Shown: positions 57,482 through 64,000 of the stretch, piece after piece
How the letters are laid out: every line of letters begins with the position of its first letter
How positions within the stretch are numbered: position 1 is the first letter of the stretch
NCBI RefSeq assembly: GCF_001294535.1
Contig: NZ_LGIC01000065.1
Coordinates: forward strand, 248,001 to 312,000
DNA from: Cypionkella psychrotolerans
GTDB taxonomy: Bacteria; Pseudomonadota; Alphaproteobacteria; Rhodobacterales; Rhodobacteraceae
Direction of reading: 5' to 3'
Length of the DNA: 64,000 nucleotides
Position numbers and translations under genes: made by a program
The notes under the pieces: model-generated
The model's input: only the letters and a program-made list of their open reading frames with translations
What the model was told of the DNA's origin: nothing
The model's database searches: none

Positions 57482-57508
57482 AAAATTATTTCCTGTCAGG
57501 GAATTTTT
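57482..57508. promoter_or_regulatory. Candidate operator upstream of dmmD
   Basis: TTTCCTG-T-CAGGGAA at the centre, with A/T arms on both sides, forms a near-palindrome. The same pattern, TTTTCTG-A-CAGGAAA, is found at 62941-62954 upstream of the small protein-permease operon. It is probably the site of a methylamine regulator such as the XRE-cupin or the AraC-type protein. Confidence 0.6.
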
Positions 57509-57587: not shown

Positions 57588-59360
57588 TCAGGCCGCGACA
57601 GGCAGCACGAAGAACCAGTTCGCCCACAGCACCACCGCAACCCCGGCAACCAGCGCCAGATAGGGCAGCATCCCGGCCTTGCGCGGCCCCAGATCGCCGT
57701 GATCTGTCAGCCCCAGGTCCTCCATCGCTTCCTTCGGGAAATGGCCCTTGTCCTGCACGTAATGGCGGAACCAGAACACCGGCAAGATGAAGGCGGCAAA
57801 CACCGCACCCGACCACAAGGCGTTTTCATAGCCCCAGACCTTAGCACCCGCGCCCAAGAACAGAGCGTTCACAAAGGCCAGCACGGTGTTGACGCCAATC
57901 AGCCAGTTTGGCGCTTTCCACGGACGGTTCAGATGCCCCGAGTCAATCCGGTGAATCCAGCCTGCATTCAGGTTGAGGAAGTTGAAGATGATGTAGCCGA
58001 CGTTGGAAATCGCCAGCACATAGAAGTAACCGCCGATATCCGAAGCCAGTGCCAGCAGGATCACGTTAAAGCCGAAATCCGTCCACATCGCCCCGACAGG
58101 CGCGCCGTGGCTGTTGGTTTTGCTCAGATACTTCGGCAGCCAGCCATCACGCGAGCCTTGATACAAAGTCCGCGAAGACCCGGCCATTGCGGTCATGATC
58201 GCCAGAAACAGCGCGAGGATCATCAGGATCACGAAGATCTGGATGAAGATCGGGTTCGAGCCAACCATCGCACCCAAAGCCTCTGCCACCCCTGTGCCGT
58301 CGATCACGCCGGGGGTCAACATGCCGCTCAGGCCGTAAACACCTTGGAACGAGAACGGGATCAGGAAGAAGAACACGATGCACAAAAGCCCCGAGTAGAA
58401 GATCGCCCGGAACGTATCGCGCTTGGGGTCTTTCAGCTCGGCGGTATAGCAAACCGCAGTCTCAAAGCCGTAGGTCGACCAAGCGGCAATATACATGCCA
58501 CCCAGAAACAGCGTCCAGCCGCCGACATTCCACTCACCATTTACCCCAGAATAGCTGGAAGTTGGCGGCACGATGCCCGTCACGTTCATCGTATTGATCT
58601 CGCCGGTCAGGATCGGGATCAAGCCCACCAACAGCAGCGGCACCAAGACCACCACCGCCAGCACCTTTTGCGCAGATGCCGTGGTGGCAATGCCGCGATG
58701 CTGGATCGCCAGCATGATCAGCATCAGCACGACGCCGATCACGAAGGTCGAGTTGAAGTGCAGCACACCCAGACCCGGAACGTTCAGCGCGTAAGCCTCC
58801 CAGACCCGGAAGGCGGGGGTCAAGGCCGCCACGCCATCGGCAGAAGCCACGGCTTGAATCGCAGCCTCGGGCGTAGTGCCTGCGTTGGCCGTGATATAAT
58901 CGACGACTGCGGGCGTTGCCGCGGTGTAATCCGCCAGATGCGCCGCGACCCATGCCACCACTTGCGGTGCCGTATCGAGGGGGATCGGGAACAACGCGTT
59001 CAGGATATAGCCTGCCGCGATGGCGCAACCCAAAGACAGCACCGGCGACCATGCAAACCAGTTGCACCAGACCGACAAAGGCGCGATCAGTTTGGAATAG
59101 CGCAGCCAAGCCGTCGCGCCATACACGCTTGTGCCGCCCGACTTGTTGCCGAACATCCCCGCCATTTCGGCATAGGTGAAGCTTTGCGAAAAGCCCATGA
59201 TCATCGACAGCATCCAAACCACGAATGCGGCTTGCCCAGCCACCCCCGCGATACCGCCGATGGAAAACAGTACAAGGGGCGGCACCCCTGCGGCGACCCA
59301 GAAGGCGCCCTTCCAATTCAGCGTGCGATGCAGATCGCCCGCTTTGCTTTCTGTAGACAT
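57588..59360 (-). CDS. APC-family amino acid/amine permease
   Basis: ATG 59360 (MSTESKAGDL) gives 590 residues; the frame is open to 59474 but without a ribosome site. About 12 to 14 hydrophobic segments; the early TM1 region IGGIAGVAGQAAFVVWM and the segment YGFETAVCYTAELKDP have the APC look. The position between dmmDABC and the mgs start makes import of methylated amines or of glutamate derivatives likely. The substrate is not determinable from the sequence. Confidence 0.8.
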   Translation of the reverse strand: MSTESKAGDLHRTLNWKGAFWVAAGVPPLVLFSIGGIAGVAGQAAFVVWMLSMIMGFSQSFTYAEMAGMFGNKSGGTSVYGATAWLRYSKLIAPLSVWCNWFAWSPVLSLGCAIAAGYILNALFPIPLDTAPQVVAWVAAHLADYTAATPAVVDYITANAGTTPEAAIQAVASADGVAALTPAFRVWEAYALNVPGLGVLHFNSTFVIGVVLMLIMLAIQHRGIATTASAQKVLAVVVLVPLLLVGLIPILTGEINTMNVTGIVPPTSSYSGVNGEWNVGGWTLFLGGMYIAAWSTYGFETAVCYTAELKDPKRDTFRAIFYSGLLCIVFFFLIPFSFQGVYGLSGMLTPGVIDGTGVAEALGAMVGSNPIFIQIFVILMILALFLAIMTAMAGSSRTLYQGSRDGWLPKYLSKTNSHGAPVGAMWTDFGFNVILLALASDIGGYFYVLAISNVGYIIFNFLNLNAGWIHRIDSGHLNRPWKAPNWLIGVNTVLAFVNALFLGAGAKVWGYENALWSGAVFAAFILPVFWFRHYVQDKGHFPKEAMEDLGLTDHGDLGPRKAGMLPYLALVAGVAVVLWANWFFVLPVAA

Positions 59361-59573: not shown

Positions 59574-59846
59574 TCAACCGGGTTTGCCATGCCGCCAAAC
59601 CTCGAATCGGACGCGGGCGGTTTTGTACGCATCCATCATCGCCAGCGCCCAAACGAACAAACCGCCCGCGAGTTTGCCGACCAGTGATACGTCGGGGCTT
59701 GCGGTTTTCAGGGTGAAGGCACCCAGCAGGATGATGAAGAACACAAACGTCAGCCCCCGGATCGGCTGACGGTTCAGCACTTGGCCAGACCCCGGCAGGA
59801 TCGTCGCGGCCAGCAAGACCAGACGGGGATTCAGAGGTTGGCTCAT
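59574..59846 (-). CDS. Small hypothetical membrane protein
   Basis: The protein has 90 residues and three hydrophobic segments (LVLLAATILPGSGQVL, GLTFVFFIILLGAFTL, GKLAGGLFVWALAMM). The GSGQVLN pattern near residue 20 is common in small DUF6677/TM2-like proteins, but I cannot name a family. It overlaps the next upstream gene (59843) by ATGA, so both are real and coupled. Confidence 0.6.
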   Translation of the reverse strand: MSQPLNPRLVLLAATILPGSGQVLNRQPIRGLTFVFFIILLGAFTLKTASPDVSLVGKLAGGLFVWALAMMDAYKTARVRFEVWRHGKPG

Positions 59847-60502
59847 GGCAACTCCTTCAGATCATCGCGCAGCGCCAGCAATGCGGCCAGCAAAGGTTCT
59901 AACAGGGCAGGGGCCAGCGGCACTTTGCCCATCTCCGCATCACGGAAGGCCAGATAGCGGGTGCGGTCGGCTTCCTCGGCCAGCCACACCAGCCGCAGAC
60001 CTTTAGGCGAGATCACCAGCTCTTTCAGCAAATCCGCATCCAGCCGTTCCAGATGCTTCAGCACCAATTCAGCAGGCGGCGCAGCCTTTGGCGCATCGCT
60101 GCGAATGGCACAATCCTCAGGAAACCCCGGCGGAGTGGCAATCTGCACCGCCAAATCCCGAAAGTTGCTGAACGGCTCCACCCCACGCGGGCGCAGCATC
60201 ACATCCAGCGTAGCACGGACAGGGGTGGGTTCCGCCAGCGTCACCAATAGCCACAGCGCAGGCAGTTTACGGTAGGTTAGCGTATCCGGCACCACTTGCA
60301 GATCAAACAGCGCGCCCTGATAGCGGCCAGAGAGGCGGGGAAATCCGGTCGGGGCAAGCGCGACAATCGGCGCATCAAACAACGGTTCAACAGCCGCGAA
60401 ATATCGCCCGCGCACGGCAAACCGCTTGGCGCTCTGCCCGCGCAACCGCACCGCAATGCCGCAGCCGATCGCAATCACCAAAGCCCAGATCAGAAATTTC
60501 AT
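59843..60502 (-). CDS. Hypothetical membrane-anchored protein
   Basis: The protein has 219 residues with one N-terminal hydrophobic segment (FLIWALVIAIGCGIAVRL) and a soluble remainder rich in Leu, Ala and Pro. I recognise no family and no catalytic motif. The coupling with the 90-residue membrane protein suggests a two-component membrane unit. It is separated from the upstream permease gene by a strong terminator at 60521-60548. Confidence 0.6.
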   Translation of the reverse strand: MKFLIWALVIAIGCGIAVRLRGQSAKRFAVRGRYFAAVEPLFDAPIVALAPTGFPRLSGRYQGALFDLQVVPDTLTYRKLPALWLLVTLAEPTPVRATLDVMLRPRGVEPFSNFRDLAVQIATPPGFPEDCAIRSDAPKAAPPAELVLKHLERLDADLLKELVISPKGLRLVWLAEEADRTRYLAFRDAEMGKVPLAPALLEPLLAALLALRDDLKELP

Positions 60503-60555: not shown

Positions 60556-61983
60556 TCAATACCCGCGCGGACGTGGCCACGGCATGGTGAACTGATCGGC
60601 GCGTTTTACAAAGCGATAGCGCCAGAAGTGGAACCACAGGCTGACCACGATATAGAACCCGATCATCGCAATCAGCTGCGTGCCATAGCCGAGGAACACC
60701 GCAAAATACGTCACCGAACACAAAGCCATCAGCGAGATCGCTGGCAGCGGGTGCAAAGGATGCTCATAGCCGCGCTTGATCGTATCCAGCGGCCATTTCT
60801 TGCGGAACATGATCATGTTGATCGGCATGAACGTATAGCCCAGCAACCCCGACAGGATCGAGAAGGTGATCACCTGATCCAAAGGTGCGCCCAAAGCAAA
60901 GATCAGCGCGATCGGCACCAGAAAGATGATCGCGCGGTAGGGCGTGCGATAGACCGGATGCACCGCGCCAAACCACGCGGGCAGATAATGGTCGCGCCCC
61001 ATCGAGAACCAAGCGCGCGAGGCATCATTGATACAGCCGTTCGCCGATGCCAAAGTCGCAAACAACGTCCCGATCCCCAGCAACCAAACCAAGGCCGACG
61101 ACCCGGAAATCTGCGCCGCCGAGAACAATGGTGCCACAGCCCCGTTCACCCCGTCACCTAAGTATTCCCACGGCATCAGCCCCGAGCAGATATACCAGGT
61201 CAGCGTCGCGGCAATCAGCAGCGTCATGATCCCGGCCAAGGTGCCAAACGGCAACGACCGCGCAGGCGAGCGTACTTCTTCCGCCGCCTGCGTCGTCCCC
61301 TCGATGCCGAGATAATACCACAGACCAAAGTGCATCGCGGCCAAGATCCCGAGCCAGCCGTAAGGCAATGACGCCTGACCGCTCATCAGGTCTTTGTGCA
61401 GCATCTCGCCCGCCCCCAACAACGGCGAGGTGGCCAAGAAAATCGTGATGATCGCGCAAAACGCAATCGCGGTGATCACAAGGTTGAACGTCAGCGTCGC
61501 TAGCACCCCGCGATAGTTTAGCCATGCCAGAAACATGATCGCCAGCACGATGAATGGCCGTTGATCTAAGCCGCCTTCATGCCCGGTCATCCCCGCCACG
61601 GTATCCACCAAGAACCCCAAGGTGATCGCGTTGCCCGCCTCCAGCATCGTATAGGCGAACACCAGATAAAGCCCGACGTTAAACGCCATCAGCGGCCCGA
61701 TGATATGCTTGGCCTGCGTATACTGGCCCCCAGCGGCGGCCACCGTCGATGTCACCTCCGAGTCAATCATCGCCACGCAGGAATACAAGATCCCGGCGAA
61801 CCAGCAGGCGATCAGCGCGGCATAAGCCCCGCCCTTACCCACCGCAAAGTTCCAGCCCATATACTCGCCGACCAGAACGATGCCGACGCCAAGCGCCCAA
61901 ACATGCGCCGGGCCCAGCACCCGCAACAGCCCCATCGATTGGCCATGTGCGGTATGGTCAACGTCCGTATCAGATTGTGCCAT
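60556..61983 (-). CDS. APC-family permease (ethanolamine/amino acid permease type)
   Basis: The protein has 475 residues with about 12 hydrophobic segments. The beginning GPAHVWALGVGIVLVGEYMG and the segment ASANGCINDASRAWFSMGRD resemble ethanolamine-type permeases of the APC family. Its gene overlaps the 62-residue protein gene upstream by 14 bases and shares an operon with two more small membrane proteins. Given the location beside mgsA and the shared operator with dmmD, uptake of a small amine such as methylamine is a good hypothesis. Confidence 0.82.
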   Translation of the reverse strand: MAQSDTDVDHTAHGQSMGLLRVLGPAHVWALGVGIVLVGEYMGWNFAVGKGGAYAALIACWFAGILYSCVAMIDSEVTSTVAAAGGQYTQAKHIIGPLMAFNVGLYLVFAYTMLEAGNAITLGFLVDTVAGMTGHEGGLDQRPFIVLAIMFLAWLNYRGVLATLTFNLVITAIAFCAIITIFLATSPLLGAGEMLHKDLMSGQASLPYGWLGILAAMHFGLWYYLGIEGTTQAAEEVRSPARSLPFGTLAGIMTLLIAATLTWYICSGLMPWEYLGDGVNGAVAPLFSAAQISGSSALVWLLGIGTLFATLASANGCINDASRAWFSMGRDHYLPAWFGAVHPVYRTPYRAIIFLVPIALIFALGAPLDQVITFSILSGLLGYTFMPINMIMFRKKWPLDTIKRGYEHPLHPLPAISLMALCSVTYFAVFLGYGTQLIAMIGFYIVVSLWFHFWRYRFVKRADQFTMPWPRPRGY

Positions 61984-62158
61984 CTCCGCCCTCCAGCTTA
62001 TGTTTCTCGGTCATCGCTTCCAACACGCCTTCGCGCGACGAGGTCAGCATTTCTTCCGTATAGGTGGTGTCGATCTTGATCCAGTCGATCACGATCAACA
62101 GCCCGAACAGCGCAGACAGTGCCCAGGCGCCGTATTCGATGTAATTCCAGGTATCCAT
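61970..62158 (-). CDS. Small membrane protein co-encoded with the permease
   Basis: The protein has 62 residues with one membrane segment (YGAWALSALFGLLIVIDW) and a charged C-terminal tail. AGGGG precedes the start. It overlaps the permease start by 14 bases. I recognise no family. Confidence 0.6.
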   Translation of the reverse strand: MDTWNYIEYGAWALSALFGLLIVIDWIKIDTTYTEEMLTSSREGVLEAMTEKHKLEGGDGTI

Positions 62159-62167
62159 CTTGCGCCC

Positions 62168-62548
62168 CTATTTCTCGCCAAATTTCTCAGCGATCACTTC
62201 GCGATATTCGATGTCGGAAAACCGGATCATCATCACGAAATAGCCGACGATCACGATCACCATCACCGCGAGGCTCACCCAGCTGAAACTGTAGTCATAG
62301 CGCGCGGTGATCATGTCATGCGCCGAGGCCGCATCTGGAAAGCCCAGCTTGTTCCATTGCTGCACCATCACCGGGTTCTGACCCAGACTCTCCCAAGTCG
62401 GGTTTTCTACCGGCACCGGAAGCTTGGCTGATCCTGCAAGCCCCAGCCACAACGGCAAGAACAATGCGCCGACCGACAGCACCACCAGCACGATGACGTC
62501 GATGATCTGGCCCAATTTGCTTTGAACGGGGGGAATATAGCGCGCCAT
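62168..62548 (-). CDS. Two-pass membrane protein co-encoded with the permease
   Basis: The protein has 126 residues and two membrane segments (IIDVIVLVVLSVGALFLPLW and WVSLAVMVIVIVGYFVMMI), separated by a loop of about 50 residues (PTWESLGQNPVMVQQWNKLG) likely outside the membrane. It starts directly after the upstream stop codon, with a 9-base gap to the next gene. No family recognised. Confidence 0.65.
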   Translation of the reverse strand: MARYIPPVQSKLGQIIDVIVLVVLSVGALFLPLWLGLAGSAKLPVPVENPTWESLGQNPVMVQQWNKLGFPDAASAHDMITARYDYSFSWVSLAVMVIVIVGYFVMMIRFSDIEYREVIAEKFGEK

Positions 62549-62839
62549 CTATTTCCCCTTCGCGGCGCGGGCCGCATCCATGAATTGGATGTCCAAGCCA
62601 TACATAAAGTCGCGGTCCTCGCGGTAATGCCGCAGCATCGCCATGATCGCGGCGGTGTTATAGATCAGCACCAAAGCACCGCCGATCAGCAGCATCACCC
62701 GTGCGCTGGGTGAGGGCGCGAGATCCCAAGTGCCATAGGCCACAAACCCGATGGCCAGCCAAAGGCCGATGACAAAAGCCCACGCAATCCGCGTGTCGCT
62801 TCGATGCATCGCCTCGATCCGTGTGTTCAGATCAGACAA
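62549..62839 (-). CDS. Small two-pass membrane protein, first gene of the permease operon
   Basis: TTG 62839 is chosen because GGGAGGAAATC precedes it; there is no ATG at this place, and a longer frame upstream looks non-coding. The product has 96 residues with two hydrophobic segments (AWAFVIGLWLAIGFVAYGTW and VMLLIGGALVLIYNTAAIMA), followed by a conserved-looking tail (HYREDRDFMYGLDIQFMD). No family recognised. It is first in a four-gene operon ending with an APC permease. Confidence 0.6.
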   Translation of the reverse strand: MSDLNTRIEAMHRSDTRIAWAFVIGLWLAIGFVAYGTWDLAPSPSARVMLLIGGALVLIYNTAAIMAMLRHYREDRDFMYGLDIQFMDAARAAKGK

Positions 62840-62938: not shown

Positions 62939-62956
62939 ATTTTCTGACAGGAAACA
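62939..62956. promoter_or_regulatory. Candidate operator upstream of the permease operon and mgsA
   Basis: TTTTCTG-A-CAGGAAA, centred on 62947, matches the site at 57482-57508. It lies about 100 bases upstream of the permease operon (leftward) and about 150 bases upstream of mgsA (rightward), so it could serve both. Confidence 0.6.
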
Positions 62957-63104: not shown

Positions 63105-64000
63105 ATGTGCGGAATCGTCGGGCTTTTCCTGAAGGACCCCAAATTACAGCCTCAGTTGGGCGCAATGCTGACTGATATGCTGATCACCATGACCGACCGC
63201 GGCCCCGACAGCGCCGGAATCGCAATTTATTCCCAAGGCAAGGTCGGCCACGGTAAGTTGACCGTACAGTCGGCCACGCCCGAGGTTGATTTCAAAAACC
63301 TCGACGCGGATCTGAAAGACGCGCTGGGCACCCCGGTGCTGATGCTGGTGAAATCCACCCATGCGGTGCTGGAAGTGCCCGCAGGCCAGTTGGATGCAGC
63401 GCGTTCGGCTTTGGCTAAAATTCGCCCCGGTATGAAAATCATGTCCTCTGGTGAAGGCATTGAGATTTATAAAGAAGTCGGCCTGCCGAAAGACGTGGCG
63501 GCCCGCTTTGAGGTTGCCAAAATGCACGGCACCCACGGTATCGGTCACACCCGCATGGCCACCGAATCCGCTGTGACCACCATGGGTGCGCATCCGTTCT
63601 CCACAGGCCCGGATCAGTGCTTGGTCCACAACGGCTCGCTCTCCAACCACAACGGCGTGCGCCGCGAATTGAAGCGTCTTGGCATGACGTTTGAGACCGA
63701 AAACGACACCGAAGTTGGTGCGGCCTTCGTTAGCCACAAGCTGCAACAGGGTGAAACCTTGGGGCAGGCGCTGGAAGCCACGCTCACCGATCTCGACGGT
63801 TTCTTCACCTTCGTGGTCGGCACCAAAGATGGCTTCGGCGTGGTCCGTGACCCAATCGCCTGCAAACCCGCCGTGATGGCCGAAACCGACCAATACGTCG
63901 CCTTCGGTTCTGAATACCGCGCCCTCGTCAACCTGCCGGGCATCGAATCCGCCCGCGTCTGGGAACCGGAACCCGCCACCGTTTACTTCTGGGAACGCTG
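63105..64000 (+). CDS. mgsA: N-methylglutamate synthase subunit A, class II glutamine amidotransferase (partial)
   Basis: The frame from ATG 63105 stays open to the window end (298 residues seen, C-terminus missing). It starts MCGIVGLFL, so Cys2 is the nucleophile of class II glutaminases; DRGPDSAG, GIGHTRMATES, VHNGSLSNHNGVRREL and DNDTE-like NDTEVGAAF motifs follow. This is the GlxB/MgsA type, which works with two further subunits in N-methylglutamate synthase: methylamine plus glutamate to N-methylglutamate. mgsB, mgsC and gmaS would be expected beyond the edge. Confidence 0.85.
   Translation, partial: MCGIVGLFLKDPKLQPQLGAMLTDMLITMTDRGPDSAGIAIYSQGKVGHGKLTVQSATPEVDFKNLDADLKDALGTPVLMLVKSTHAVLEVPAGQLDAARSALAKIRPGMKIMSSGEGIEIYKEVGLPKDVAARFEVAKMHGTHGIGHTRMATESAVTTMGAHPFSTGPDQCLVHNGSLSNHNGVRRELKRLGMTFETENDTEVGAAFVSHKLQQGETLGQALEATLTDLDGFFTFVVGTKDGFGVVRDPIACKPAVMAETDQYVAFGSEYRALVNLPGIESARVWEPEPATVYFWER

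Follow-up and report, generated by a model that had tools for sequence, protein, structure and literature searches.

The minus strand of the window (the whole 64,000-nucleotide stretch of Cypionkella psychrotolerans DNA that was analysed) carries at 62839-59574 a unit of six genes, in the order s1-s2-s3-APC-p219-p90, that is real and strictly conserved: profile searches of the best 80 of 495 relatives of its permease, together with plasmid loci, recovered all six genes, in one order and on one strand, in 83/83 loci in which no contig end cuts the unit short. We propose that the six genes probably encode one transport system for monomethylamine (methylammonium, CH3NH3+), composed of an APC permease and dedicated accessory subunits. 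A role in amine uptake linked to the N-methylglutamate pathway is very likely; judging by the sequences, monomethylamine is the likely substrate, and a physical multi-subunit complex is plausible. The proposal draws on the obligate linkage of the six genes, their methylamine-pathway context, their alternation with Amt at one slot, and a common motif in the first transmembrane (TM) segment of the permease, TM1.

Architecture and conservation of the six-gene unit

The genes and sites concerned, in window coordinates, are:

62549..62839, minus strand: s1, first gene of the unit, 96 aa, two predicted TM segments, TTG start
62168..62548, minus strand: s2, 126 aa, two TM segments flanking a conserved ~55-residue loop that by charge is probably periplasmic
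61970..62158, minus strand: s3, 62 aa, single TM segment
60556..61983, minus strand: permease of the APC superfamily, 475 aa, TM1 motif VGEYMGWN; predicted transporting subunit
59843..60502, minus strand: p219, 219 aa, N-terminal TM segment and beta-rich domain predicted to be cytoplasmic, weak fold match to TtfA
59574..59846, minus strand: p90, 90 aa, two TM segments, weak DUF5683/DUF6677 similarity below cut-offs
63105..64000, plus strand: mgsA (N-methylglutamate synthase subunit), divergent neighbour running toward the window end; pathway context, outside the unit
62940..62954, no strand assigned: operator-like palindrome TTTTCTGACAGGAAA, which differs from TTTCCTGNCAGGAAA at one position and lies upstream of s1
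57489..57503, no strand assigned: matching operator-like palindrome TTTCCTGTCAGGGAA upstream of dmmD, one mismatch to TTTCCTGNCAGGAAA
60521..60548, minus strand: strong GC-rich hairpin with an 11-bp stem that separates the permease gene from p219, then TCATTTTT (T-rich tail)

The initial annotation had described the four open reading frames (ORFs) from s1 to the permease as a compact minus-strand operon bordering mgsA; all four are present, and the plus-strand neighbour at 63105 is mgsA. Homologs of s1 begin with ATG at the same residue as the TTG proposed as its start (62839), which makes that start plausible, and hydropathy gives two, two and one TM segments for s1, s2 and s3, in line with the one or two described for each, as well as one at the N-terminus of p219 and two in p90. 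The claim that gaps and overlaps are at most 9 bases holds for s1/s2, which directly abut, and for s2/s3, with a gap of 9 bases, but not for s3 and the permease, which overlap by 14 bases. The s1, s2 and s3 protein sequences are conserved out to the Betaproteobacteria while synonymous codon changes are frequent, so the small ORFs are real genes; conservation at the protein level that reaches other classes rules out chance ORFs. The DNA of Sinorhizobium meliloti Ak57 pSymB (L006:6430-6991) encodes intact s2 and s3, which the listed annotation lacks, and annotation-based surveys would therefore miss the partners.

A tblastn search of plasmids returned ~22 records at 66-83% identity, followed by a cliff to <30%, and the order s1-s2-s3-APC-p219-p90 was found in plasmid records of Paracoccus, Pseudohalocynthiibacter, Pararhizobium, Aminobacter, Sinorhizobium, and Paraburkholderia; Aminobacter MD1 is one strain in which a plasmid carries the unit. 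The 495 relatives came from a genome scan with the permease alone, and its closest match to the window permease, 99% identical, lies in a Cypionkella metagenome-assembled genome (MAG). Four loci are incomplete, and all four end at a contig edge. We looked for loci in which the small genes are not conserved with the permease, and every complete locus holds them, so the small genes are obligate genomic partners as had been suggested. The suggestion had been of a four-gene set, and although those four are conserved together, p219 and p90 are just as strictly conserved, which rules out a unit of four. Obligate co-occurrence and a fixed gene order, as for a multi-subunit transporter complex, are thus both found. 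In one MAG (L051:3707-5092) the permease frame is in two pieces, reflecting either a stop or a sequencing error.

Among 398 genomes of the phylum, every permease ortholog (at least 784 bits), including one from another class (G783), has the partners, with one locus cut by the contig end; the next-ranking permeases in that draw (157 bits) have no partner genes. Within 197 genomes of the order, p219 is found only beside the permease. Partner protein distances follow those of the permease (r 0.75-0.83), indicating that the unit is inherited or transferred as a block. Its distribution is patchy, with s2 in 9/248 genomes of the family and 4/240 of the class.

Such linkage could also arise if the permease alone transports methylamine and the five partners are co-inherited neighbours that act separately, for example in envelope maintenance or as insertion factors. 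The complex of six proteins is a prediction from the genes, in most loci the hairpin sets p219-p90 apart from the four genes before them, and the p219 and p90 distances correlate most strongly with each other (0.86), all of which suits separate action; against it, none of our searches turned up a partner that lacked the permease, and the gene order is invariant over several families and classes. We consider separate action somewhat unlikely and favour dedicated subunits of one system.

A counterpart of the hairpin (fold energy -15 kcal/mol or lower) lies 3′ of the permease gene in 73 of the 76 loci with a gap there. It is possibly a partial terminator or an mRNA stabiliser that sets subunit ratios, and would either keep p219 and p90 expression below that of the permease or make the upstream message more stable. 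The operator motif that the initial annotation saw as shared with dmmD is present, with one mismatch to the palindrome upstream of both s1 and dmmD, and related sites scoring at least 12 lie upstream of s1 in 52/84 homologous loci, against ~0.8 expected from simple base shuffles. Genes for a GlxA/AraC-like regulator (51729, minus strand) and an XRE-like regulator (52815, plus strand) lie beside dmmDABC; the XRE-like regulator is a candidate for binding the shared palindrome. In Ruegeria, control has been ascribed to TmaR, an AraC-type regulator that responds to catabolites of methylamine (PMC13390433), and the GlxA/AraC-like regulator could be the counterpart of TmaR.

Methylamine genes and Amt around the unit

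Just upstream of most units, and divergent from them, lie mgsA-mgsB-mgsC-gmaS. Where the locus extends at least 9 kb to either side of the permease (52 loci), gmaS or mgsC is within ~10 kb of the permease in 43, tmoP in 20, and dmmAB in 6; conservation beside mgs/gma genes and a context pointing to amine uptake, both of which had been anticipated, are therefore borne out. Because gmaS/mgs are near so many of these loci and dmm near so few, the unit tracks monomethylamine assimilation, and an association driven by dimethylamine genes is ruled out. In the family draw, gmaS is in 8/9 s2-positive genomes compared with 81/248 overall (Fisher p = 7e-4), and 12 of the 13 genomes whose unit is away from mgs carry gmaS elsewhere.

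Some observations speak against the importer reading. No s2 match was found in 73 of the 81 gmaS-positive genomes of the family, which means that the pathway does not depend on the unit, and Paracoccus sp. IB05 has a complete unit, yet no gmaS or mgsC was detected in its genome. The neighbours of the IB05 unit (L065) are signalling genes, an arginase and a peroxidase, with no amine enzyme recognised among them. A search of five plasmid records for gmaS/mgs lacked a match solely on the 62-kb Pseudohalocynthiibacter plasmid, for which the plasmid alone was covered. Methylamine dehydrogenase (PF06433) had no match in genomes with an unlinked unit, and the control genomes gave none either.

Other arrangements place further amine genes nearby. 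In Sinorhizobium the unit lies between dmm/purU and gmaS-mgs, and in two genomes from a different family all six genes point the same way as mgsABC-gmaS, with Amt after p90 in one of them. In the window, a TmoP-type TMAO permease (NF053774, 819 bits, above cut-off) is encoded at 57588-59360, between the unit and dmmD, such that the cluster holds separate importers for TMAO and, we infer, methylamine. On a Haladaptatus plasmid (L008:3971-7198), a distant APC permease gene is directly followed by a glutamine-synthetase-like gene, without small partners, and the pair may be an archaeal echo of the pairing of permease with amine gamma-glutamylation.

The presence of dmm and tmoP near the unit in some genomes raises the question of whether it is a broader small-amine importer (of dimethylamine, ethanolamine, or others), with methylamine one substrate among several. 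The IB05 unit and the nearest curated family of the permease, an ethanolamine permease, also fit this alternative; however, the common denominator of the loci is gmaS/mgs (43/52) and not dmm (6/52), and we regard a broad specificity as improbable. The likely substrate is monomethylamine.

A second line of evidence for this substrate comes from the slot divergent from mgsA, which we compared in stretches taken at 60 places that hold gmaS or the unit. Over the family draw and the genome scan together, the slot holds the unit in 63 loci, a lone Amt in 14, and both in none; the genome-scan loci had been picked for having the permease. In a further 33 loci of the family draw the slot contains neither of the two. 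The flanks match: one locus with gmaS-mgsCBA / Amt / XRE-like regulator (L116) is paralleled by another with gmaS-mgsCBA / six genes / XRE-like regulator (L014), and mgsA / Amt / dmmDABC (L122) by mgsA / six genes / tmoP / dmmDABC (L011). With the same divergent slot and matching flanks, the simplest reading is that Amt and the unit probably do the same job, methylammonium uptake, although the Amt beside mgsA may serve ammonium instead. Outside this slot, a few genomes (e.g. L097 and L164) do contain Amt together with the unit.

The Amt genes beside mgsA in L116, L118, L122, L125, L128, L129, L141, L146, L147, L149, and L152 fall into two score groups against one query, at ~310-340 and 630-690 bits, and two Amt lineages thus seem to have been recruited to the mgsA slot. 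The unit fills the same divergent slot in relatives and is nonetheless an unrelated protein family: the six proteins have no Amt match in Pfam and NCBIfam scans, and Amt stands alone, without five partners. In Pseudomonas C5pp, whose operon runs gmaS-mgsABC-amt, the amt gene carries the annotation of methylamine transporter (PMC8292978).

The permease and its partner proteins

The permease passes the Pfam gathering scores of PF00324/PF13520 (110.5 and 101 bits against cut-offs of 24.6 and 27), and its best curated model is the ethanolamine permease TIGR00908, for which its score of 179.5 bits lies below the cut-off of 381.75 and rules out membership of that equivalog. Like the ethanolamine permease Eat (TIGR00908), it belongs to the APC fold family and has the acidic TM1 motif G[ED][YF]xGW in a small-amine context; unlike Eat, to which it is 24-27% identical, it has partner genes, none of which stand alongside the annotated eat genes examined. 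By alignment, the motif in its longer form, G[ED][YF]xGW[NS], is common to the permease and annotated ethanolamine permeases. The motif with its acidic residue is invariant in 27 permease orthologs, and so are E40, W44, E228, and E236. In the bacterial APC carrier GkApcT, backbone amides of Thr43/Gly44 in TM1 hold the substrate alpha-carboxylate (PMC5803215). Alignment of the two TM1 segments needs a one-residue gap, with the register uncertain by one, and places the invariant Glu of the permease in the part of TM1 that holds the carboxylate, which would favour a plain amine over a substrate that carries a carboxylate.

This bears on a different possibility, that the permease carries, in or out, an amino-acid compound of the pathway such as gamma-glutamylmethylamide, N-methylglutamate, or a theanine-like relative. 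Its closest Pfam families are amino-acid permeases, and linkage to gmaS/mgs fits any intermediate of the pathway, but the acidic residue in the carboxylate-holding part of TM1, which the ethanolamine permeases have in common with it, and the alternation with Amt at the same slot make this quite improbable, and a methylamine permease is the reading we retain.

None of s1, s2, s3, and p219 has a Pfam or NCBIfam match above cut-off, and p90 has weak sub-threshold matches alone. Looking for known small-subunit families (DUF485 and similar), we found no Pfam match above cut-off for s1, s2, and p90 homologs, or for s3 scanned as the window protein only. The s2 model has low confidence (pTM 0.35) and no PDB match, and searching the PDB sequences with profiles of s1, s2, and p219 returned nothing meaningful. 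The p219 model has high confidence (pLDDT 94, pTM 0.90) and consists of a long N-terminal helix and a beta-rich domain; the TM segment spans residues 2-20 with a positive flank after it, which predicts a cytoplasmic domain.

The sole notable structural match of p219 is TtfA (6t84; Foldseek probability 1.00, E 1e-3, TM-score 0.44/0.52); a viral fold library gave no match. TtfA is membrane-anchored, with a TM segment at 2-24 and a cytoplasmic C-terminus, and it binds the MmpL3 transporter and is needed for MmpL3 transport (PMC6593404). By prediction, p219 would resemble TtfA in having an N-terminal TM segment and a cytoplasmic domain, and in a role as accessory of a membrane transporter; on the other side, the TM-score is modest and the transporter of TtfA is of a different superfamily and substrate. 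We take the match as a hint only, since p219 has no sequence similarity to TtfA.

The initial annotation had considered sensing as well as uptake. A system acting mainly as a sensor (transceptor) that reports external amines would fit a location inside a co-regulated cluster, several accessory membrane proteins, and a soluble domain on p219. None of the six proteins has a recognised kinase, cyclase, DNA-binding, or other signalling domain, the cluster has separate regulators of XRE-like and AraC-like type, and the control attributed to TmaR in Ruegeria also weighs against it; with no supporting domain, we set the sensing role aside as very improbable and keep to transport.

A candidate methylamine transporter and its relatives

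From these observations we infer an exact substrate, a direction and energy coupling of transport, a physical complex, and a role for each subunit. The APC permease would be the transporting subunit, in which E40, in the part of TM1 where amino-acid APC carriers hold the carboxylate on backbone amides, would bind a carboxylate-free amine together with W44 and E228, as in the related ethanolamine permeases. Uptake would probably be proton-driven and would be pulled by GmaS, which traps methylamine as gamma-glutamylmethylamide; PuuP/PuuA is an arrangement that resembles this one. The s1, s2, and s3 proteins could be TM helices that attach to the permease and stabilise it or serve as its gate, with s2 adding a periplasmic cap, and p219 and p90 may work on the cytoplasmic side, either in assembly or in control. 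Given the hairpin before p219, we propose that these last two are made in smaller amounts.

A more specific version, which we put forward tentatively as possible, is a six-component secondary transporter in which the APC permease needs five accessory membrane proteins of undescribed families, a TtfA-like cytoplasmic factor included, and which serves as the methylamine importer of many N-methylglutamate-pathway bacteria in replacement of Amt.

That APC permeases normally act alone, as had been stated, is roughly true, with exceptions. The SLC7 HAT heterodimers are APC carriers with a partner chain, a glucosidase-like heavy chain whose Pfam family none of the five partners matches above cut-off. 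Some secondary carriers have small subunits, as do sodium/solute symporters with DUF485-type partners; there too a many-TM carrier is encoded with small TM proteins, but those carriers are of a different superfamily and have one or two partners, and the DUF485-type families are unmatched here. Crystals of GkApcT contained a small protein, MgtS, bound on TM5, and loss of MgtS lowered total GkApcT uptake (PMC5803215). This is likewise an APC carrier with a small, in this case single-TM, protein bound to it; in contrast to the unit, MgtS is one partner, acquired from E. coli during heterologous expression and not encoded with the carrier.

We found no description of the six-gene unit in open-licence literature, and a subscription journal may hold a mention; the accessible portions of papers on methylamine use in Ruegeria, Paracoccus, Aminobacter, Methyloversatilis, and Methylophilaceae do not name it. 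For methylotrophic Methylophilaceae, one paper calls the mode of methylamine uptake unclear (PMC6794327).

Methylamine is a widespread marine and soil nitrogen source whose entry into N-methylglutamate-pathway bacteria is poorly assigned, and the unit, with 495 permease relatives in the genome scan, is a concrete and testable candidate for its uptake. It also provides five protein families that lack annotation with their first context, although public annotations omit some of the genes, and it is suited to asking what tiny membrane proteins do to transporters. If our proposal is true, the unit would represent an unusually elaborate form of APC carrier, one of the rare cases in which many small partners are obligate.
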